Shown here: one piece after another, positions 3,506 through 29,634 of the stretch
Layout of the letters: every line of letters begins with the position of its first letter
Position numbering within the stretch: the first letter of the stretch is position 1
Source of the DNA: Candidatus Tantalella remota
GTDB lineage: Bacteria > Omnitrophota > Gorgyraeia > Tantalellales > Tantalellaceae
Assembly (NCBI GenBank): GCA_030765685.1
Contig: JAVCCB010000089.1
Location: 1 to 32,752 of the forward strand
Reading direction: 5' to 3'
Length of the DNA: 32,752 nt
Made by a program: the position numbers and the translations under genes
The notes under the pieces: model-generated
Databases searched by the model: none
Told to the model about the DNA's origin: nothing
The model's input: only the letters and a program-made list of their open reading frames with translations

Positions 3506-3510
3506 AGTTT

Positions 3511-3550
3511 TCGTATTTCGTATATCGTATTTAGTTCAAAAACAAAGTTA
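3511..3550. repeat. TCGTATT heptad array
   Basis: Four units in exact 7-nt phase (TCGTATT, TCGTATA, TCGTATT, TAGTTCA at 3511-3538) lie directly upstream of the CPBP protease start. An AAGTTAAGGTT unit follows. The tract ends in the same TAGTTCA unit as the array at 1826-1860. Confidence 0.85.
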
Positions 3551-3557
3551 AGGTTGA

Positions 3558-3730
3558 CGTCATCCCCGAATGTGACCGAGGGGCAAAGGTCCCCGAGGAA
3601 ACCGAAGGTTCCCCGTAATAAAATTAAATGCATGTAGGGAAATGCCGAATGCCAGAGGGCTTCGGCCTCTTAGCGGGGATCCAATAAAAATATTACTTCC
3701 ATTTGATTCCCGCTTCCGCGGGAATAACGT
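3558..3730. repeat. Composite palindromic dispersed repeat, copy 1
   Basis: The element starts GTCATCCCCG and contains GAGGGGCAAAGGTCCCCGAG, a TGCCGAATGCCAGAGGGC arm and GCGGGGATCC. A spacer at about 3681-3710 contains AAAAATATTACTTCC, and the end is the hairpin CCCGCTTCCGCGGG (3709-3722) followed by AATAACG. The spacer and its flanks match 9188-9231 almost base for base. A degenerate third copy is at 29340-29463. Confidence 0.8.
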
Positions 3731-3737
3731 TCGAGTT

Positions 3738-3816
3738 CCGTCCCTGATGTCCTGATATCCTAATCCCTAATACCCGGATCCCCCGATGTCCCTATTCCCT
3801 ATTCCCTTACTTCCCG
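3738..3816. repeat. GATATCC / CCCTATT array
   Basis: Units of the form CCTGATATCC, TAATCCC and TAATACCC are followed by CCCTATT repeats. The tract fills the space between the composite repeat and the nested element. Confidence 0.75.
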
Positions 3817-3874
3817 ATACTCGGTACCCGCCTGTCCGCCATAGCTTCAGCGAAGGCGGGATACCCGGTACCCC
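3817..3874. repeat. Nested repeat element, copy 3 (short form)
   Basis: It has the same CTCGGTACCC and GGGATACCCGGTACC borders as copies 1 and 2. The interior is shorter, with one CTGTCCGCC and one TAGCTTCAGCGAAGGCGG. It ends one or two bases before the stop codon of the TatD-radical SAM gene (3876-3878). Confidence 0.85.
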
Positions 3875-3875
3875 A

Positions 3876-5252
3876 TCAGCCCACTACATGCAAATGACGC
3901 AAACGGAAAGATGCTCCGAACTCTTCCGCCAAACGCCGGCATTTTCTCACACCGTCCTCACCTATCATATCCAGACATGTCACCTCGACTTTTATACCCT
4001 GCCCGACGCAGGTCCTGATAAAATCAAGTATGGACTCATGGGCGGCCTTGCCGAAAACCGAACGGCAAAGATGCGCGTACGCGTCCGGTTCAGCCGAGTT
4101 AAGACTCACGGAAACCCTGTCAACAAGACCTTTCATCTCCGTCGCTATCTCTCGCCTGTTTATAAGATCCCCTTCCCCGTTGGTCGTAAGCCTTACCTTG
4201 CCGCCTTTGGACTTAACGTATGACGCTACTTTTTTGAGAACATCAAAACGGACTGTCGGTTCACCGAAACCGCAGAAAACTATCTCGTCATAATCCGTGG
4301 GTTCGCCTATAGCTGTCACCAGATCGTCATATGAAGGTTCCTTGTCCAGCTTCAGATTATGACCTTTTACATAATCCGATACCTCTCGGGCACAGAAAGT
4401 GCACCTGTTAGTACACCTGTGCGTTATGTTCAGGTACAGCGAATCACGTATCTTATACGCTACCGTATCTCCCGACTCCAGACCTAACCGGAAGAGCTTG
4501 TCAGCGTTTCGGGTAGTCGCCCCCGCTATTTCCTCTTTCGGCATACCATATATATCAGCGTATGTATCCAGAAGGTTATTCACAAAAGCCGGTTCGTTCC
4601 TTTTGCCCCGCAAGGGTTCCGGGGTTATATATGGCGAATCCGTCTCCAGAAAAAGTTTATCTAAAGGCACACGAGCGGCCAACTCCCGCAGATCCGAGGC
4701 TTTCCCGAAAGTAATATTGCCCGCGAAAGATACAAAGAAGTCCAGGGCAAGCACCTCTCTCAGAAATTCAGCGTCACCGGAAAAACAATGTACCACGCCT
4801 CTTAAAACATTAAAATCCTGAGGTCTTATTATATCCAACAAGTCCCCGCTCGCGTTCCGATTATGCAGTATCACCGGCAGATCCAGCTCTCTTGCGATAG
4901 AGAAACATCCTTTAAAAAGTCTTATCTGGTTGTCCCGTTCGGCATAATCCCGGTAATAATCAAGCCCTATCTCGCCTATAGCTACCACTTTAGGCGACGA
5001 TATCGCTATATCCCTTACCCGCTCTATATCCGCGGGGGTTGCTTTATCCGCTTCATGCGGGTGTATGCCTACAGCGGCAAATATCTCATCGTGGGAGGCA
5101 GCCAGAGCGATCGCTTCTTCGCTGCTGGGTATGCTTACCCCCGGCACTATCATGCGAACAACACCAGAGTCCACGGCATTTTTTATAACCGCTTCCCGGT
5201 CTTCGTCATACTGCTTCAGATCAAGATGGCAATGGGTATCTATTAACTTCAT
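3876..5252 (-). CDS. TatD-family metal-dependent DNase fused to a radical SAM domain
   Basis: Residues 1 to about 258 are a complete TatD hydrolase with its metal-ligand pattern: THCHLD (His7, His9), GEIGLD (Glu94), His130 in VILHNR, His155 in VVHCFSG and Asp205 in ETDSPY. Residues from about 265 to 458 form a short radical SAM domain. Its CxxxCxxC cluster motif is Cys280, Cys284 and Cys287, followed by a GFGEPT motif that helps bind S-adenosylmethionine. Such a radical SAM partner is known as the TatD-associated radical SAM family, here as one chain. TatD proteins are 3'-5' exonucleases; the radical SAM reaction is not known. The ATG at 5252 gives the standard TatD N-terminus. The gene follows metG and the MGMT gene, matching the metG-tatD neighbourhood of Bacillus. 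Confidence 0.93.
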   Translation of the reverse strand: MKLIDTHCHLDLKQYDEDREAVIKNAVDSGVVRMIVPGVSIPSSEEAIALAASHDEIFAAVGIHPHEADKATPADIERVRDIAISSPKVVAIGEIGLDYYRDYAERDNQIRLFKGCFSIARELDLPVILHNRNASGDLLDIIRPQDFNVLRGVVHCFSGDAEFLREVLALDFFVSFAGNITFGKASDLRELAARVPLDKLFLETDSPYITPEPLRGKRNEPAFVNNLLDTYADIYGMPKEEIAGATTRNADKLFRLGLESGDTVAYKIRDSLYLNITHRCTNRCTFCAREVSDYVKGHNLKLDKEPSYDDLVTAIGEPTDYDEIVFCGFGEPTVRFDVLKKVASYVKSKGGKVRLTTNGEGDLINRREIATEMKGLVDRVSVSLNSAEPDAYAHLCRSVFGKAAHESILDFIRTCVGQGIKVEVTCLDMIGEDGVRKCRRLAEEFGASFRLRHLHVVG

Positions 5253-5270: not shown

Positions 5271-5368
5271 AAGTAAAAAGTAAAAAGGAAAAGGGAAAAA
5301 GGAAAGGTTTCTTGTTAGGCATAAAGGCCCTTCCTACATTTTTTCCTTTATCCTTTTTCCTTTATCCT
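5271..5368. repeat. Opposed heptad arrays, AAGGAAA and CCTTTAT
   Basis: Five exactly phased units (AAGTAAA, AAGTAAA, AAGGAAA, AGGGAAA, AAGGAAA) occupy 5271-5305. The complementary-type units TTTATCC and TTTTTCC occupy 5340-5368. The two halves could pair into a stem in the transcript. The right end runs into the MGMT gene: its stop codon (5362-5364) lies inside a TTTATCC unit (5361-5367). Confidence 0.85.
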
Positions 5369-5679
5369 TCACTGTTATTCCTTCCTTCTTTTTTCAACAA
5401 CGCTCGTTTCTTAACTATTCCGCCGGAGTATCCGCCGATGGTACCGTCGGACGCTATGACCCTGTGACACGGCACATCAGGCACGTAAGGGTTGATCGCC
5501 ATGACCTGCCCCACCGCCCTCGCGGCGCGGGGCGAACCCGCTTCACGCGCTACCCATCCATAAGACTTTACTTCGCCTTCCGGAATATCCGCGACAACCA
5601 TAAGAACTTTCTTCTGAAAATCCGTAAGTTCCGGATCCTCACCGATCATATTTTTCAACTTTGACTTTTGATCGCCCAT
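5362..5679 (-). CDS. MGMT-family protein (catalytic domain only, methyl-acceptor Cys retained)
   Basis: This 105-residue protein corresponds to the C-terminal DNA-binding and alkyl-acceptor domain of O6-alkylguanine-DNA alkyltransferases. It lacks the usual N-terminal domain. Visible motifs are FQKKVLMVVADIPEGEVKSYG (residues 21-41), the DNA-binding segment RAARAVGQVM and the active-site motif PCHRV with Cys71. The GGYSGG loop follows. The small alkyltransferase-like (ATL) proteins have a similar size but replace this Cys, so the protein may be a minimal suicide repair enzyme. The ATG at 5679 is preceded by AGGA about 11 bases away. The last five codons and the stop are built from repeat units, so the C-terminus may have been remodelled. 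Confidence 0.9.
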   Translation of the reverse strand: MGDQKSKLKNMIGEDPELTDFQKKVLMVVADIPEGEVKSYGWVAREAGSPRAARAVGQVMAINPYVPDVPCHRVIASDGTIGGYSGGIVKKRALLKKEGRNNSEG

Positions 5680-7296: not shown

Positions 7297-8100
7297 TTAT
7301 TTTGCCTCCTTGATATCGTCCACTTTGATGTCCTTTATCTTTCCGTCTCCAAAATCCACCGTAACCTGCCTCTTAAGCGGGTTTACAGATATTATCTTGC
7401 CTTTACCCATCTCTGTCATTATCTCTTTCCCTACCTTAGGAAGCCCCTTGGAGCACTCCCGGTAGCATTTATACTCGTAACCGAGACAGCACATAAGTCT
7501 TCCGCACAGACCGGAGATCTTCGACGGGTTAAGCGGCAAGTTCTGCACTTTTGCCATTTTTATCGTCACGGGATCAAAATCCTTAAGGAAAGCTTTGCAG
7601 CAGAGTTCCCGGCCGCAGGGGCCCTGTCCGCCGATCATCCTGGCTTCATCCCGAACGCCTATCTGCCTGAGCTCTATCCTAACGCGGAATATGCTCGCCA
7701 GATCCTTCACCAGATTCCGGAAATCCACCCTGTTTTCCGACGTAAAATAAAATATGACCTTCGCCCTGTCGAACGAATACTCAGCGGATACCAGCTTCAT
7801 CGGAAGTTTGTGCTCCGCGATCTTGCGGTCGCAGACGTTCATAAGGTCCTTGGATTTTTTCTCATTCTTTTCTATCTGCTGTTCGTCCCAGGGATTAGCT
7901 TTTCTTATGACTTTACGGACGGGCTTCTCGACGTGGGCCATCTCCTTGGAAGTGTCGTTCGGAGATGTCACTTCCCCCGACTCAAGCCCCCGGTCGGCCT
8001 CGACGATCACCTTGTCCCCTGTCTCGAATTTCATACCGTTAGCAAAAAAATACTTCTTCTCACCCGCTGTCCTTAGCTGTACTTGTACCAATTCCTGCAT
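7297..8100 (-). CDS. ricT: PSP1-domain protein RicT (YaaT)
   Basis: This is a 267-residue PSP1-domain protein. In Bacillus subtilis RicT acts with RicA and RicF in an iron-sulfur complex that affects RNase Y-dependent mRNA maturation; outside Firmicutes its role is little known. The cysteine clusters typical of the family are visible: GPCGRELCCKAF and SGLCGRLMCCLGYE, in the middle of the chain, with the RIELRQIGVRDEARMIGG segment before them. The C-terminal part has a KxKIISVNPLKRQVTVDF-like beta fold. The ATG at 8100 has a strong site (AAGGAG, 8 bases away). It lies directly between holB and metG, the conserved position. RicA and RicF homologues are not in the window. Confidence 0.94.
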   Translation of the reverse strand: MQELVQVQLRTAGEKKYFFANGMKFETGDKVIVEADRGLESGEVTSPNDTSKEMAHVEKPVRKVIRKANPWDEQQIEKNEKKSKDLMNVCDRKIAEHKLPMKLVSAEYSFDRAKVIFYFTSENRVDFRNLVKDLASIFRVRIELRQIGVRDEARMIGGQGPCGRELCCKAFLKDFDPVTIKMAKVQNLPLNPSKISGLCGRLMCCLGYEYKCYRECSKGLPKVGKEIMTEMGKGKIISVNPLKRQVTVDFGDGKIKDIKVDDIKEAK

Positions 8101-9113: not shown

Positions 9114-9149
9114 CGTATCCCGTATTCTTCTGCCTAGTAACCACAATTT

Positions 9150-9170
9150 AAGTAAAAAGGATAAAGGAAA
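9150..9170. repeat. AAGTAAA / AAGGAAA heptads
   Basis: Three units of seven bases (AAGTAAA, AAGGATA, AAGGAAA) lie upstream of holB. They are the same family and orientation as 5271-5305. Confidence 0.75.
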
Positions 9171-9300
9171 TCATCATCCCCGCGGAAGCGGGGATCCAAT
9201 CAAAAATATTACTTCCATTTGATTCCCGCTTCGCTGAAGCCCTCTGGCTTTCGGCACTTCCTCGGGGACCTTTGCCCCTCGGTCGCGCGGGAATCACGTC
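9171..9300. repeat. Composite palindromic dispersed repeat, copy 2
   Basis: The element opens with TCATCCCCGCGGAAGCGGGG, a perfect hairpin. It continues with the spacer containing AAAAATATTACTTCC that is shared with copy 1 (9188-9231 against 3673-3716, differing by one inserted base). It ends with CCTCGGGGACCTTTGCCCCT and GCGGGAATCACG. The GGGGCAAAGGTCCCC arm is in the opposite orientation to copy 1. Confidence 0.8.
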
Positions 9301-9341
9301 CCCTGCGCCTTCGGCTTGCGGATCCAGCGTCGCGAAGTTTA

Positions 9342-9370
9342 CCCTGAACCGAACTTGTTCTGGTTTAGGG
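9342..9370. repeat. Imperfect 29-bp palindrome
   Basis: CCCTGAACCGAAC pairs with the sequence ending CTGGTTTAGGG. The stem is about 12-13 base pairs and the loop is short. A related half, CCCTGAACCGGAAC, occurs at 15186-15199 between mlaF and mlaD. Confidence 0.6.
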
Positions 9371-9379
9371 CTCCTGGTT

Positions 9380-9482
9380 TTCCCTATTCCCTATTCCCTG
9401 TTTACCGTTTACAGTTTTCTGTTCACCGTTTACAGCTTACTGTTTACAGCTTATCTCCTACCACTAAACCTTAACCTCGATC
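9380..9482. repeat. CCCTATT and GTTTACA heptad arrays downstream of tmk
   Basis: CCCTATT units (about 9382-9399) pass directly into eight perfectly phased units at 9400-9455, consensus GTTTACN. AACCTTA-like units follow up to the stop codon of tmk (9483-9485). There is no gene in 9147-9482. Confidence 0.88.
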
Positions 9483-12865: not shown

Positions 12866-14305
12866 TTATTGTCCGTCATGCTGCTGCGTATCCTGTTCCG
12901 GCTGCTGCCGGTCCTGAGAATTGTTGTCCTGTCTTTTGTGCTCTTCAGCCTGAGGTTTGTTATCCTGAGACTCGTGCTGTTCCGTCTGAGGTTTATTCTC
13001 CTGCCTCTGGGGCTGTTCCGCCTGAGGTTTATTCTCCTGCCTCTGGGGCTGTTCCGTCTGAGGTTTATTCTCCTGCCTCTGGGGCTGTTCCGCCTGAGGT
13101 TTATTCTCCTGCCTCTGGGGCTGTTCCGTCTGAGGTTTATTCTCCCGCCTCTGTGGTTCCGCCTGCGGCTTATTCTCCCGCCTCTGTGGTTCCGCCTGCG
13201 GCTTATTCTCCTGCCTGTCACGCGGCTTCTGCTGCCTGTTGTTTCTCGGCCTTCTCTGCTCAGATCTTTTCTGCTCCGGCCTTTTCTGCGCGGGTCTCTT
13301 CTGCTCATGCTTTTCGTTAAGCGCGGCAAAAATCATCCTTCCGGCAGACGTCTGCAAAACGCTTGATATAGTCACGCGCACCCTTTTACCTATCATTTGC
13401 CTGGAATTATCGACGACTATCATTGTGCCGTCATCAAGGAAAGCCACACCCTGATCCCTTTCCTTACCTTCTTTTCTGATCTGCACTTCCATCTGTTCTC
13501 CTGGGAAAACAACCGGACGCATCGCGTTGGCAAGGTCGTTTATATTGAGGACTTCCACGCCTTCAAGTTTAGCGACCTTGTTAAGATTGAAATCGTTCGT
13601 AAGTACCGGGCAATCCAGTATCTTCGCCATCCTCACCAGCTTGGCATCGACTTCCTTAATTTCCGACAGACCTTCCTCATGTATTATGATCTCTATTCCC
13701 GGTATCTGTTTAAGCCTATCCAGTATGTCAAGTCCCCGGCGGCCTCTCCTCCGTCTCCCGTCATCGGCGCTGTCTGCTATCTGCTGCAGTTCATGAAGGA
13801 CGAAACGGGGCACTACTACCTTTCCCTGTAGGAACGCTGTCTCGCATATCCCGGATATCCTTCCATCGATAATAACGCTGGTATCCAGAAGAAACCTCTG
13901 GTCCCTCTGGTCCTCTCTCGAAAACCTTACATACGGTATGACCACATTAAATTCGTCTTTCCCCTTGATAGCGATGACCATGCCGAGATAACAAAATATA
14001 AGAGTGAACACTATCTGAAATATCGAGTACTGCAACGCTTCCATCGGAAGAAGACGCAAAATAAGCGTTATCATCCAGGCCATAAAAAACCCGAAGGCGA
14101 GCCCGAACGCGGCCGCCGAAAGGTTTCGCAACGAAACGCTCTTCATTTTGGCCTCTAAAAATGATATTACCGCACCTATAGTTAACCCTATTCCCGCAGC
14201 CAGCAATGCCTTCTGGCTTACCAGACCCGTAAAACCGGACCCGATATAATAACCACACACCGCGCTTAGGACCAGAAAAAAGGTCCTTATCAGTTTAATT
14301 GTCAT
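12866..14305 (-). CDS. PIN-TRAM membrane protein (YacL-like) with a repetitive C-terminal tail
   Basis: The start is set at the ATG at 14305 (MTIKLIRTFF), which has a GGAAGTGAG site; an ATG at 14359 would add 18 unlikely residues. The 479-residue protein has four hydrophobic helices within about 1-115. A PIN nuclease-like domain follows (FLLDTSVIIDGR, FVLHELQQIAD, VLTNDFNLNKVA), then a TRAM domain (EQMEVQIRKEGKERDQGVAF to RMIFAALN). From about residue 333 a basic Pro/Gln-rich tail appears, with eight 11-12-residue repeats of the form ENKPQAEQPQRQ. Bacillus YacL (about 366 residues) lacks this tail. The protein may be a membrane-tethered RNA-binding or nuclease factor; its substrate is unknown. 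Confidence 0.92.
   Translation of the reverse strand: MTIKLIRTFFLVLSAVCGYYIGSGFTGLVSQKALLAAGIGLTIGAVISFLEAKMKSVSLRNLSAAAFGLAFGFFMAWMITLILRLLPMEALQYSIFQIVFTLIFCYLGMVIAIKGKDEFNVVIPYVRFSREDQRDQRFLLDTSVIIDGRISGICETAFLQGKVVVPRFVLHELQQIADSADDGRRRRGRRGLDILDRLKQIPGIEIIIHEEGLSEIKEVDAKLVRMAKILDCPVLTNDFNLNKVAKLEGVEVLNINDLANAMRPVVFPGEQMEVQIRKEGKERDQGVAFLDDGTMIVVDNSRQMIGKRVRVTISSVLQTSAGRMIFAALNEKHEQKRPAQKRPEQKRSEQRRPRNNRQQKPRDRQENKPQAEPQRRENKPQAEPQRRENKPQTEQPQRQENKPQAEQPQRQENKPQTEQPQRQENKPQAEQPQRQENKPQTEQHESQDNKPQAEEHKRQDNNSQDRQQPEQDTQQHDGQ
12929..13210. repeat. In-frame tandem repeat of 33/36 bp inside the PIN-TRAM gene
   Basis: Eight contiguous units encode the C-terminal repeats. Six are 36 bases and two (13145-13210) are 33 bases. 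The four units at 13001-13144 are nearly identical. One codon alternates between Thr and Ala from unit to unit, giving a 72-base higher-order period. There are no spacers, so this is not a CRISPR array. The repeats keep several other frames open, which explains spurious long open frames on both strands here. Confidence 0.95.
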
Positions 14306-14363
14306 ACTACTCACTTCCTTTCTGAAAATTAATAAAAATTCATTACGGCCGACATCCATTCTG

Positions 14364-15992: not shown

Positions 15993-16076
15993 CTGTATTT
16001 AGTATTCCGTATGCAGTATTTAGTGTTTCCCAGTTCCCCGTTTACAGGTTACCGTTTACAGTTCCCCGTTCGCGTC
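15993..16076. repeat. TAGTATT then GTTTACA heptad array downstream of mlaE
   Basis: Five phased units (CTGTATT, TAGTATT and variants, 15993-16027) are followed after a 5-base interruption by six phased units of GTTTACA/GTTCCCC type (16033-16074). The mlaE stop codon (16077-16079) comes two bases later. Confidence 0.88.
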
Positions 16077-22068: not shown

Positions 22069-22575
22069 CTATCCTTCCAGTTTTTCTTCCATTTCCCTTA
22101 CCCTGTCCCTCACAAGTGCCGCCTTTTCAAATTCTTCCGACAGGATGAGTTCGCCAAGTTCGTTCTTAAGGCGCTGCAGGTCCTCCTGGTCTTTTACGGC
22201 TTCATCATTCTTAAAAGGCATCTTACCAACATGCCTTTCCGAACCATGTATCTTTCTCAGGAGACCGTTGAGGTTCCCCTCGAACGTCTCATAGCATTGT
22301 CCGCATCCCAATCTGCCGGACCGCTGAAAATCAAAATACGTGAGGCCGCATCCGGCGCACTTTACGTCTATGTCCTGACCCATATCTCCGTCCGGCATAG
22401 AAGGACCCAGGTCCATCAACCCCGTCAAAAGATCCGTAAGCCCGAAATGCGACTGCATCTCCTCGCTTTTGTCATGCGCACACTCTTCGCAAAGATGAAG
22501 CTTGTTCACGCTACCATTCACCACTTCCGTCAGATGTACCGTAGCTTCCCTGTCCTTACATATATCACATTTCAT
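22069..22575 (-). CDS. mcsA: McsA-like zinc-finger activator of McsB
   Basis: This 168-residue protein has four CxxC zinc motifs (CDIC at 3-6, CEEC at 29-32, CAGC and CGQC near 73-97). A C-terminal UVR-type helical hairpin follows (LKNELGELILSEEFEKAALVRDRVREMEEKL). In Firmicutes McsA binds and activates McsB. Here it is the first gene of mcsA-mcsB-clpC, where Firmicutes have ctsR in front. The ATG at 22575 has an AAAGGA site. It follows ilvE after a 151-base repetitive gap. Confidence 0.94.
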   Translation of the reverse strand: MKCDICKDREATVHLTEVVNGSVNKLHLCEECAHDKSEEMQSHFGLTDLLTGLMDLGPSMPDGDMGQDIDVKCAGCGLTYFDFQRSGRLGCGQCYETFEGNLNGLLRKIHGSERHVGKMPFKNDEAVKDQEDLQRLKNELGELILSEEFEKAALVRDRVREMEEKLEG

Positions 22576-22633
22576 CTTTTTCCTTTACCGTTCACTGTTT
22601 AAATATTGGAAACGGCGGCGATATTAACGTGAT

Positions 22634-22724
22634 CTATTCCCGATTCTCCATTCCCAATTCTCTGACGCTGATCCTGTTCACAATTCACTGTTTACAGTTT
22701 ACTATTTACAGTTTACAGTTCACT
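22634..22724. repeat. Thirteen perfectly phased heptads downstream of ilvE
   Basis: The 91 bases divide exactly into thirteen 7-base units. The sequence type drifts from CTATTCC/CCATTCC through TGATCCT to GTTTACA/GTTCACT without losing phase. The ilvE stop codon (22727-22729) follows two bases later. A short GTTCACT pair also lies near 22589-22602. No gene is in this gap. Confidence 0.92.
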
Positions 22725-22726
22725 CC

Positions 22727-23599
22727 TTAATATTCCGTTCCCTCGGACTGTGTCAGTTTCTTATATTCCTGTCTTAGTCTGTGCGTCATCTCGCCGGGTT
22801 CCCCGGATCCGATCTTTTTGCCATCGAGATCGACGACAGGGATTATTTCCGCGGCTGTACCCGTTAAAAAACATTCATCGGCCTGAAGGACTTCCTCGGG
22901 AAGTATATTTTTGAACTCTGTGTCTATCCCCATATTTTTAGCCATATCTATTACTGTGTCCTGCGTCACACCCTCAAGCGCCCCCATCTCCGCGAGAGGA
23001 GTAAAGAGTTTACCGTCACGCACCAGAAGTATATTGTCTCCGCTGCACTCCGCAACATACCCTTCTATACTCAGCATAAGCGCTTCTTCTGTCCCGCCGT
23101 TTATCGCGTCTATCTTCGCGAGTATGTTATTAAGATAGTTCAGGGATTTTATCCTGGGATCCAGCGTAGTCGGATGGTTCCGTCTTACTTTGGAAGTCAC
23201 TATCGGCAATCCCTTTTCATAGAGCTCTTCGGGATAAAGCTCTATCGTATCCGTAATTATAAAAATGGTCGGCGCCGGGCACTTGCGCGGATCAAGCCCG
23301 AGATCTCCCGCTCCCCTGGTAACAACAGCACGGATATAGGCGTCGCCCAGATCATTCAATTTAAGAGTCTCTATCACTTTCGACTTGAAAGCTTCTTTTG
23401 TTATAGGTATCTCAAGAGATATCGCCGCGGCTCCCCGATAAAGACGGTCTATGTGCTCGTCCAGTTTGAAAACTCTTCTGTTGTACGACCGTATGCCTTC
23501 AAACACACCGTCACCATAAAGCACACCGTGGTCGAACACCGACACGCACGCGTTTTCTTTCTCGACAAATTTTCCGTTCAAAAATATTTTAAGTCCCAT
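22727..23599 (-). CDS. ilvE: Branched-chain amino acid aminotransferase
   Basis: IlvE is a fold-type IV PLP enzyme that transfers amino groups in leucine, isoleucine and valine synthesis. The Schiff-base lysine is Lys151 in RIKSLNYLNNILAK. GDGVFEGIRSYN, EGYVAECSGDNI and CFLTGTAAEIIPV match the branched-chain group rather than D-amino acid or aminodeoxychorismate relatives. The 290-residue length is normal. The ATG at 23599 has AAGGGG 7 bases away. It lies between lolD and mcsA, with no pathway partner nearby. Confidence 0.94.
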   Translation of the reverse strand: MGLKIFLNGKFVEKENACVSVFDHGVLYGDGVFEGIRSYNRRVFKLDEHIDRLYRGAAAISLEIPITKEAFKSKVIETLKLNDLGDAYIRAVVTRGAGDLGLDPRKCPAPTIFIITDTIELYPEELYEKGLPIVTSKVRRNHPTTLDPRIKSLNYLNNILAKIDAINGGTEEALMLSIEGYVAECSGDNILLVRDGKLFTPLAEMGALEGVTQDTVIDMAKNMGIDTEFKNILPEEVLQADECFLTGTAAEIIPVVDLDGKKIGSGEPGEMTHRLRQEYKKLTQSEGTEY

Positions 23600-24333: not shown

Positions 24334-25548
24334 CTATTCGTATCTGATAGCCTCTACCGGATCCAGTCGCGACGCTTTCCATGCCGGATAAATGCCCGCG
24401 ACTACCGTAAGGATCATCGCCACGGAAATAATAAGGGTCACATCCGGACGGCTTACCACAACCGGTATTTCCGTAAAATAGTACACGTCGCTGGGAAACA
24501 CGGTGACACCGGTAAAACGCTCTATCAGATCCGCCACATCGTTGACCCGCCTTGCTATGTATACGCCGGAAAACCCGCCGGCCAGAATACCCAGTAACCC
24601 TATCATCGTTCCCTCGAAAAGGAATATCAATCTCACTCCCCAGGCGCTTGCTCCTATCGCTTTAAGTATTCCGATATCCCTGGTCTTTTCCATGACCATC
24701 ATTATGAGTGAACTCGATATATTAAAACATGCCACCATCACTATAAGCGCCAGTATTATGAACATCATCTTCTTTTCAAGAGCCAGGGCCGCTACCAAAT
24801 TGCGGTCAAGGTCCATCCAGCTCTTTACCAAATACGGGTAACCCAGCGTATGCTGCAGCTTGTCCCGTATAACCGTAACATTCATCTCATCATTCACCTT
24901 GAGGCCTATTCCGGAGACCCTGCTTCCTTTCATCCGGAAAAGTTCCCTCGCCGTATCAAGCCCCACTACCCCGATATTGGAATCGTAATCATATCTGCCG
25001 GAAGTGAAAGTCCCAATGACTTTGAGCTTCTCCTTTTCCATATCGAAAGCCGAATACGGCAGCAGTATCTCCACCATATCTCCAACGATGATACCCTCGT
25101 TCTTCATAAGCTCGCTGCCCAGGATGATCGTCTTACCCTGAAGTCTCTCCCCGTCCCCACCCGAGTATGTAAGGACCTGTGAGACTTCCGATTCCTTATC
25201 AGGGTCTATTCCCTTAAGAAGTATTCCGGTAGCAATATCATCTTTCCTGAGTATTGCCTGTCCGGTTATGAACGCCGAAGCGCTTTCGACTTCCGGCAGG
25301 GATTCAAAATAACCCGTCAGCTCACGTGGATCGCTTATTCCTCCTTCACGCATCACTATAGCGTGCGCGTAGGTGCCAATGATCTTTTTCCTGACTTCAA
25401 GGTCGAACCCGTTCATCACCGACATCACTATTATCAAAGAAGCCACCCCAAGCGCCACTCCGAGAACAGATATCGCGCTTATAAGCGAGATCATTCCCTC
25501 TTTACGTTTGGAAAGAAAATATTTTATACTTAAAGAAAAACTCCACAT
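24334..25548 (-). CDS. lolC: Lipoprotein-releasing ABC transporter permease (LolC/LolE family)
   Basis: This 404-residue permease has one N-terminal helix (about 17-45), a large periplasmic MacB-type core domain and three C-terminal helices. The N-terminus FSLSIKYFLSKRKEGMISLIS and the segment MVMEKTRDIGILKAIGAS are typical of LolC/LolE. The end, YPAWKASRLDPVEAIRYE, is the family signature. A single permease gene next to lolD suggests a homodimeric LolF-like arrangement instead of LolC plus LolE. The ATG at 25548 has no ribosome binding site: the gap to lysS is filled by a heptad array, so initiation may rely on coupling. Confidence 0.94.
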   Translation of the reverse strand: MWSFSLSIKYFLSKRKEGMISLISAISVLGVALGVASLIIVMSVMNGFDLEVRKKIIGTYAHAIVMREGGISDPRELTGYFESLPEVESASAFITGQAILRKDDIATGILLKGIDPDKESEVSQVLTYSGGDGERLQGKTIILGSELMKNEGIIVGDMVEILLPYSAFDMEKEKLKVIGTFTSGRYDYDSNIGVVGLDTARELFRMKGSRVSGIGLKVNDEMNVTVIRDKLQHTLGYPYLVKSWMDLDRNLVAALALEKKMMFIILALIVMVACFNISSSLIMMVMEKTRDIGILKAIGASAWGVRLIFLFEGTMIGLLGILAGGFSGVYIARRVNDVADLIERFTGVTVFPSDVYYFTEIPVVVSRPDVTLIISVAMILTVVAGIYPAWKASRLDPVEAIRYE

Positions 25549-25552
25549 ATAT

Positions 25553-25619
25553 TAGTCGCTAGTCGTTAGTCTCTAGTCACTAGTACTGTTCACCGTTCAC
25601 TGTTTACTATTCACTGTTG
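25553..25619. repeat. TAGTCNC to GTTCACT heptad array between lysS and lolC
   Basis: Nine units in unbroken 7-nt phase cover 25553-25615: four TAGTCNN units, TAGTACT, then GTTCACC, GTTCACT, GTTTACT and ATTCACT. The next seven bases, GTTGTTA, contain the lysS stop codon (25620-25622). The left end is four bases from the lolC start codon. Confidence 0.92.
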
Positions 25620-27050
25620 TTATTCCGGTCTCATATGCGGGAAAAGTACGACCTCCCGAATACTTGCCGAATCCGTAAATATCATCGCCAGCCTGTCAAT
25701 GCCTATGCCAAGTCCTCCCGCAGGCGGCATTCCGTATTCAAGCGCCCTGACAAAATCGTCATCGACCATCGCGTCCGGATCAGCCTTGGCCTGTTCTTCA
25801 AACCTTTCGCGCTGGTCTATAGGATCGTTAAGCTCAGAATAAGCGTTAGCTATCTCCATCCCGCCCATATAAAGCTCAAACCTGTCCACCAGCCCCGGAG
25901 CATCCTTCTTCTCTTTTGCCAGGGGGCTGAGTTCCTTGAACATATCCACTACAAAAACAGGATGTGTCTCGGTCTCCGGCTCGACAAGTTCTCCGACTAT
26001 ATTTATTATCTGCGTCTTACTTACTTTATCTCCCTCTATCTCGATGTCTTTCGCTTTGAGCTTCTTGACCCATTCTTCCAGAGGGTCCTGCACCCTTATG
26101 CCGAAATTGCTTTCCATAAGTTCGGCAAAGGATACCCTCTTCCATTTTGTCAGGTCGACTTCTCTGCCCTGGTACTGGAATTTCTCCGTCCCGAGTAAAG
26201 TCTTCGCGGCCGAACGTATAAGTTCTTCCGTTATCCTCATCATACCGTCACAGTCAGAATACGCCTCATACACTTCCATCATGGTAAACTCAGGGTTATG
26301 CCGTGTGGATATACCCTCGTTACGGAACGACCGGTTGATCTCGAAAACTTTCTCAAATCCTCCTACCAGAAGTTTTTTCAGGTATATCTCCGGCGCTATC
26401 CTCAGGTACAAGTCCATATCAAGAGCTTCATGATGTGTTTTGAAAGGCTTGCCTGCCGCGCCGCCGGGTATCGGATGCATCATCGGGGTTTCCACTTCGA
26501 AAAACCCTTTGTCTATAAGACTTTCCCGTATATGCTGGACCAGCTTGATCCTGGTCTTAAACTTCTCCATCGCCTCGTCATTGACGATAAGGTCCACGTA
26601 TCGCTGCCTGTACCTTGTCTCCACATCTTTCAGGCCGTGCCATTTCTCCGGCAGTGGAAGGAGCGATTTGGAGAGCACCTTGAACTCGGCTACCTGTATG
26701 GTATCTTCACCGGTCCTGGTTTTAAAGATCTTCCCGTCAACGCCGATTATATCCCCTATATCCAGAGCCTTATAGGTTTCAAACGCTTCGTCCCCTACAA
26801 CATTCTTCCTGACATATACCTGCATACGGCCCGAGAAATCCTTAATGTCCAGAAACGCGCTTTTTCCATGCTCTCTTCTGGCCATTATCCTGCCGGCTAT
26901 CCTGCACTTACGCCCTTCAGCCGGATCTTCCTTCACGGATCCTATGCTCTCTATGTCGGTAAAATGTTCTCCGAACGGATCAATACCTGTTTCCCGAAGT
27001 TTCTCAAGGTTCTTGTATCTCTGCTCAATAAGCTCGTTTTTCTCTTCCAT
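25620..27050 (-). CDS. lysS: Lysyl-tRNA synthetase (class II)
   Basis: LysS charges tRNA-Lys. The start is taken at the ATG at 27050 (a GTG sits directly before it). An N-terminal OB-fold anticodon domain covers about 50-145. The class II catalytic core follows with RYRQRYVDLI, motif 2 FEINRSFRNEGISTRHNPEFT and motif 3 GGLGIGIDRLAMIF. It ends at FPHMRPE, the normal C-terminus, with 476 residues in all. A consensus promoter lies about 150 bases upstream, so it is probably the first gene of the long operon. Bacillus also has lysS just before the mcsA-mcsB-clpC region. Confidence 0.97.
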   Translation of the reverse strand: MEEKNELIEQRYKNLEKLRETGIDPFGEHFTDIESIGSVKEDPAEGRKCRIAGRIMARREHGKSAFLDIKDFSGRMQVYVRKNVVGDEAFETYKALDIGDIIGVDGKIFKTRTGEDTIQVAEFKVLSKSLLPLPEKWHGLKDVETRYRQRYVDLIVNDEAMEKFKTRIKLVQHIRESLIDKGFFEVETPMMHPIPGGAAGKPFKTHHEALDMDLYLRIAPEIYLKKLLVGGFEKVFEINRSFRNEGISTRHNPEFTMMEVYEAYSDCDGMMRITEELIRSAAKTLLGTEKFQYQGREVDLTKWKRVSFAELMESNFGIRVQDPLEEWVKKLKAKDIEIEGDKVSKTQIINIVGELVEPETETHPVFVVDMFKELSPLAKEKKDAPGLVDRFELYMGGMEIANAYSELNDPIDQRERFEEQAKADPDAMVDDDFVRALEYGMPPAGGLGIGIDRLAMIFTDSASIREVVLFPHMRPE

Positions 27051-27194
27051 CACACACCCTTTTTAGTAAATTGCTTTAAAATTTGCCTGCAAGAAAACAC
27101 TGAAAAAGACACTCTCCTGCCCTTTTCCTATACCTCTGCCTGTATACTGCGCCCTTATATATACATAGAAATATAATTCTATAGATATTATTAC
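27051..27194 (-). other. Untranslated leader of lysS
   Basis: About 144 bases lie between the expected transcription start (near 27194) and the lysS ATG. The leader is AU-rich and includes AATTATATTTCTATGTATAT. I see no T-box motif, strong terminator-antiterminator pair or known riboswitch. AAGGG before the start serves as ribosome site. Confidence 0.5.
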
Positions 27195-29463: not shown

Positions 29464-29634
29464 TAAAAATATATCCCAATATCCTAGTCCCCGATACTCG
29501 GTACTATTCTCCATTCCCTATTCCCTAGTCCCTGATATCCAAATATCCTGATATCCTAGTCCCTGATCCCCTGATATCCTGATAACCTAGTCCCTGATAT
29601 CCCTATACTCGGTACCCGATACCCGGTACTGTTA
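29464..29634. repeat. GATATCC octad and CGGTACC heptad array downstream of polX
   Basis: Repeated CTGATATCC, TAGTCCC, ATTCCCT and TGATCCCC units pass into the exactly phased 7-base units CTATACT, CGGTACC, CGATACC and CGGTACT (29603-29630). The next heptad, GTTACTA, contains the polX stop codon (29635-29637). No gene is present. Confidence 0.88.

Follow-up and report, generated by a model that had tools for sequence, protein, structure and literature searches.

Intergenic heptamer tandem repeats in Candidatus Tantalella remota change unit family in register between related units, as expected from slippage and point mutation

The window analysed here is a stretch of 32,752 nucleotides (contig JAVCCB010000089.1) that forms part of the 2.03 Mb draft genome of Candidatus Tantalella remota. 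One of its intergenic spacers (22576-22726, unstranded), delimited by open reading frames and Pfam domains (PF01063, PF02151), lies between an mcsA-like gene with a UVR motif (22069-22575, minus strand) and an ilvE-like gene for a class IV aminotransferase (22727-23599, minus strand), both assigned from reading frame and Pfam. The spacer holds an array of heptads at 22634-22724, the end of which adjoins the 3' end of ilvE (22727), while its start is 58 bp from the start of mcsA. A first block on the plus strand (22634-22661; TRF 22636-22662) consists of the units CTATTCC, CGATTCT, CCATTCC and CAATTCT, which belong to the ATTCYCN family (NNATTCY in this unit cut) and alternate between C and T at base 5; a second (22676-22724, plus strand; lag-7 array 22677-22723, score 22) consists of seven RTTYACN units. 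Between the two lies a non-repeat linker, CTGACGCTGATCCT (22662-22675, plus strand). Another spacer (25549-25619, unstranded), delimited by reading frames, spacer sequence and Pfam, is made up almost entirely of heptads and is flanked by a gene for an FtsX/MacB-like permease (24334-25548, minus strand) and one for a lysyl-tRNA synthetase-like protein (25620-27053, minus strand), again assigned from reading frame and Pfam. It carries, on the plus strand, four TAGTCNN units (25553-25580), a junction unit TAGTACT (25581-25587) that is best read as TAGT[C]ACT less one base, and four RTTYACN units (25588-25618), both blocks being lag-7 arrays.

According to the original prediction, the heptad phase is kept at both of these sites while the repeat changes family. 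The 91 bases of the first site do divide exactly into the 13 heptamers that had been listed, and the 63 bases at 25553-25615 are divisible into nine. A 7-base ruler fits any stretch, so the register has to be judged from the sequence likeness of the two blocks. At the first site their mean identity is 0.29 at shift 0 and highest (0.57) at shift 5, equivalent to -2; the linker carries this shift, which is taken up by units 5 and 6 (CTGACGC and TGATCCT), members of neither family, and an independent genome-wide pattern search also returned an offset of 5 (22657 to 22676, d = 19). At the second site, where TAGTCNN units had been described as passing into GTTCACT units in phase, mean identity is 0.09 at shift 0 and highest (0.53) at shift 6, and the junction unit carries the corresponding shift of -1. 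The blocks are thus unlike at the ruler phase and most alike at shifts 5 and 6, so that the register is broken at both sites, and the phase seemingly kept there is an effect of the ruler only.

Heptad arrays are common in this genome. At a lag-7 score threshold of 12, 117 period-7 arrays were detected in 368 kb of the genome, compared with 2 in a Markov-2 control sequence of equal length; the sampled contigs had been chosen for containing matches, so that array densities may be high. The same sample contains 25 period-8 arrays. Of the period-7 arrays, 98 are fully intergenic, 16 partly so and 3 genic, in sequence of which 81% is coding. About a dozen heptad families are present, and 472 of the 502 spacings measured inside families are divisible by 7. 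No Rfam family reached its gathering score anywhere in the window. As for mobile miniature elements (REP/MITE), shared flanks were not found, and the matches of a 301-bp query elsewhere in the genome all fell within its positions 133-236, that is, the array and its edges.

The spacers of the window contain other repeats as well. Period-8 and mixed 7/8 arrays of the CCTGATAT and CCTAGTC types, with GATATC cores, are present in heptad-bearing spacers (666-742, 1904-1952, 2239-2260, 29524-29602), and 18-bp units of the type TAGCTTCAGCGAAGGCGG recur across spacers (2039-2073, 2367-2402, and within the spacer 3506-3875). Palindromes resembling CATCCCCGCGGAAGCGGGGATCC are found in the spacers 3506-3875 and 9147-9482. 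A 36-bp tandem repeat of about 8 copies (12940-13216) lies within a PIN-TRAM protein gene (12866-14359, minus strand), in its 3' part, and gives rise to a tail resembling QENKPQAEQPQR. A single reading frame at 3876-5252 joins a TatD DNase domain to a radical SAM domain.

Junctions between heptad families were examined for register throughout the genome. From ATTCYC to GTTYAC units, 26 of 44 junctions are in register against 8.25 expected (p = 4e-9), and many of those in register contain hybrid units, often a single mutation away, such as ATTCAC, GTTCCC and GCTCAC. An example of such a change is found in the window, from ATTCCCT to GTTYACN units (TTCCCTATTCCCTATTCCCTGTTTACCGTTTACAG; 9380-9453, plus strand, lag-7 score 33), with its in-phase junction at 9393-9405, and also a mixed array in which GTATTYA units are followed by GTTCCCN/GTTTACN units (15995-16071, plus strand, lag-7 score 24). 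A double-anchored pattern had 16 matches in the genome itself, of which the 10 listed represent 8 distinct loci, 7 of them in register; the whole GTDB set contained 14 stretches with this pattern, spread over several phyla, and in 9 the length was in register. A change of family within a kept 7-base step is therefore real for families related in sequence, though not at the two sites for which it had been proposed. A general phase lock over all family pairs was not detected (p = 0.10, with 15 strict junctions in repeated pairs), and targeted searches for AGTAT-to-GTTYAC and AGCATC-to-RTTYMC junctions found few loci with mixed offsets. Where less related families lie side by side there is no fixed register, the few junctions having no common offset. 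A positional profile common to all families, which the original prediction had called for, was not supported (p = 0.14). Frequent phase breaks, which had been named as the result that would speak against the prediction, were seen at the two sites and at the junctions of less related families, the latter being few cases, but not inside families, where 472 of 502 spacings keep the step.

Most probably, the arrays belong to an already known kind of heptamer tandem repeat, in which slippage adds or removes whole units and mutation alters units without displacing them; to this reading we assign a probability of roughly 0.85. Replication slippage is the most likely means by which arrays would gain or lose whole units (7, 14, 21 or 28 bp), and units would pick up point substitutions that later slippage re-amplifies. 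A substitution would leave the register unmoved, and indels of one or two bases would be much rarer, so that a mutated unit would stay in phase with its neighbours and families could grade into one another (ATTCCC to GTTCAC by way of ATTCAC or GTTCCC) without a phase break. Within arrays, identity declines over lags 7-42 in the series 0.74, 0.67, 0.61, 0.54, 0.47 and 0.45, compared with about 0.25 off phase; when 7-bp slippage was simulated with uniform substitution and 3-4 substitutions for every slippage, the values were 0.72, 0.62-0.64, 0.59-0.61, 0.54, 0.50-0.51 and 0.46-0.50. The first and last units of an array differ in phase at two or more positions in 84% of cases in this genome and 78% in others, and in 64-81% when unit slippage, uniform substitution and some indels were simulated, slightly below the value for this genome. 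In-phase family change between related units is thus what slippage with point mutation leads one to expect. The premise that ordinary slippage makes copies of only one unit is mistaken once substitutions build up between slippages, and the step from phase-locked mixtures to templated addition, or to selection for spacing, does not follow, since slippage plus substitution gives similar decay and family change.

Templated addition of one unit at a time, whether telomerase-like or from reverse-transcribed heptads, could also set different units in one register, and blocks of identical units followed in register by other blocks have the appearance that it would produce. A Nostocales stretch (L162:1251-1370) provides an example, where 17 heptads follow one another without a gap; they form homogeneous blocks, and from block to block about 1-2 bases change in register (ACAGGTG, AACAGTG, AAAACTG, ATAACTG). 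However, neighbouring units are few substitutions apart and their likeness decays with distance, which slippage predicts and a template does not, and related genera carry different families at the same locus, so that templated addition is extremely improbable.

Differences of whole units are visible when Xanthomonas species are compared. In one orthologous spacer, three close pairs of sequences (91-94% identity) differ by a single array indel each, of 28, 14 and 14 bp; these lengths refer to close pairs only, more distant pairwise alignments being too gapped. Sequences L104 and L116 differ by one extra GAATCCC (7 bp), and one Xanthomonas species contains a stepwise series in register, GTGAACC, GTGAATG, GGGAATG, GGGAATC. 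Such changes in unit number probably result from replication slippage rather than recombination, and by analogy the history seen in Xanthomonas would hold for the Tantalella genome also.

Some arrays are arranged as inverted pairs. One in the window (5271-5369, unstranded) consists of two lag-7 arrays, of the AAGTAAAAAGGAAA type on the plus strand at 5271-5305 and the TTTTTCCTTTATCC type on the plus strand at 5340-5369. In the family relative G013, inverted array pairs about 30-55 bp apart occupy successive spacers (L080: 6623-6737, 8346-8453, 9351-9463, 10218-10327, 11545-11667, 13270-13373), each pair being largely of one family. Among 11 pairs of neighbouring arrays in family relatives, 7 are inverted copies and none is direct; among 24 such pairs in the genome itself, 7 are inverted and 3 direct. 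This would suit long intergenic hairpins with the arrays as their arms, if function or repair held the two arms to one family and one register. In Xanthomonas both arms tend toward one family, with GGGAAT on the left and ATTCCC on the right in some species and GGGATT with AATCCC in others, and the coding-strand RNA of the spacer at 22576-22726 is predicted to fold better than shuffled sequences (z = -2.3). Yet most arrays of the Tantalella genome are without an inverted partner of the same family, the predicted fold of the spacer at 25549-25619 is not unusual (z = 0.61 and -0.56), the two arms of Xanthomonas L100 belong to different families, and a hairpin by itself leaves the register unexplained. 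This arrangement is very unlikely to account for the in-phase changes.

The unit sequences turn over fast. Orthologous spacers in family relatives contain quite different heptads or none, and among the phylum's 384 genomes the mixture of ATTCYC and GTTYAC units is present in this one alone. In the family to which a Nostocales match belongs, 1 of 145 genomes contained a stricter form of it. The idea of a unit family kept throughout bacteria was rejected in view of this rarity and of the 14 GTDB stretches.

Uniform mutation does not predict two features of the arrays. Within this genome, variation recurs at positions 4 and 7 of GTTYACN units across 39 arrays (permutation p = 2e-4, from a repeat without the regular expression, as the per-position mismatch test based on that expression is biased to free positions outside it); in the other genomes sampled the effect was weaker or absent. 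The second feature is alternation: of 35 steps from one GRTACYC unit to the next, 31 switch between A and G. Near-strict alternation of GATACCC and GGTACCC, a 14-bp super-unit built on GGTACC palindromes, was noted in the window at 452-509 and 29601-29629 and in L012 at 2676-2708 and 7789-7956. Adjacent units are alike at position 7 in only 16 of 66 comparisons, where an identity of 0.37 is expected, so that they differ more than random units would. The position-7 differences and the GRTACYC alternation suggest that copying often proceeds in units of 14 bp, not 7. Shared free positions and alternation could reflect dispersal of mixed arrays, 14-bp copying, or selection on fixed positions. It is unlikely that every seventh base is read under a position-specific constraint (G-T-T-.-A-C fixed, positions 4 and 7 free, at dozens of loci), with the families as tolerated spellings.

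Selection that holds the 7-base spacing through a protein or RNA that reads certain positions of the unit, and for which the families are alternative spellings, is also improbable. It would account for variable positions that match between independent loci of one family in this genome, and for the orientation of [AG]TTYMCN units, which mostly run opposite to the gene direction (24 versus 10; p = 0.024 for this family, six families having been tested). Against it, no profile is shared by all families, the register is broken at the two sites first considered and has no fixed offset between less related families, orthologous spacers in relatives hold different heptads or none, and the unit mixture is confined to one genome of the 384. 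Stop codons in all frames were rejected as the cause of the 7-base step, stop trinucleotides being fewer in the arrays (482) than in column-permuted arrays (567, sd 25).

Repeats of this kind have been described in other prokaryotes, and the arrays reported here belong with them: their 7-bp units occur well above chance and are mostly intergenic. In the SPADE survey of 7006 prokaryotic genomes (PMC6344855), no other intergenic tandem repeats are as abundant as heptamers, and no clear clue to their function is given there. The repeats of that survey and the long simple sequence repeats of Mrazek et al. (2007, as cited in PMC4679880) resemble the present ones, as far as those accounts describe them, in being intergenic, with a period of 7 and many unit sequences; abundance is what they report, whereas the present analysis measured register where one family gives way to another. 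The proposal attributed to Mrazek (PMC4679880, PMC4692102) that the polymerase holds a stretch of 7 nt would explain the 7-base step.

There is also a likeness in sequence to the GGGAATC/GGGGAYT heptads of Xanthomonas and Nostoc (PMC4692102), which are likewise intergenic, degenerate and often in inverted pairs, degenerate units and inverted pairs having been reported for Xanthomonas by Rehm et al. (2015), and which vary in unit number between species. ATTCCCN is the complement of NGGGAAT, that is, of the GGGAATC type, but about half of the units here, unlike those heptads, break the G-tract (ATTCTC, ATTCAC), base 5 being C in 29, T in 18 and A in 9. Intact GGG in at least four successive units, as a G-quadruplex would require, was not found in ATTCYCN arrays. 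Quadruplex formation is therefore not a general constraint, and was rejected as such.

TAACTGA repeats, known from Beggiatoaceae, Cyanobacteria and Bacteroidetes (MacGregor 2015, PMC4679880), are also intergenic heptamers, are mixed with other heptamers in Microcystis, and are described together with 7-nt indels between close Cyanothece strains. In the Beggiatoaceae genome of that study mostly one sequence is found, just upstream of start codons, whereas here there are a dozen families, and the array at 22634-22724 lies beside the 3' end of ilvE. The heptads in the P6b stem of the Nostoc trnL intron (Kaasalainen et al. 2015, PMC4476775), with 7-nt units TDNGATT/NNTGAGT, degenerate positions and repeated replacement of one class by another, are located in a group I intron, whereas the arrays here are intergenic. 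Related families keep register, less related ones do not, and slippage with substitution reproduces both, so that no special mechanism for writing the units is needed. What is left to explain is the length of the step, seven bases, and the constancy of some unit positions from locus to locus.
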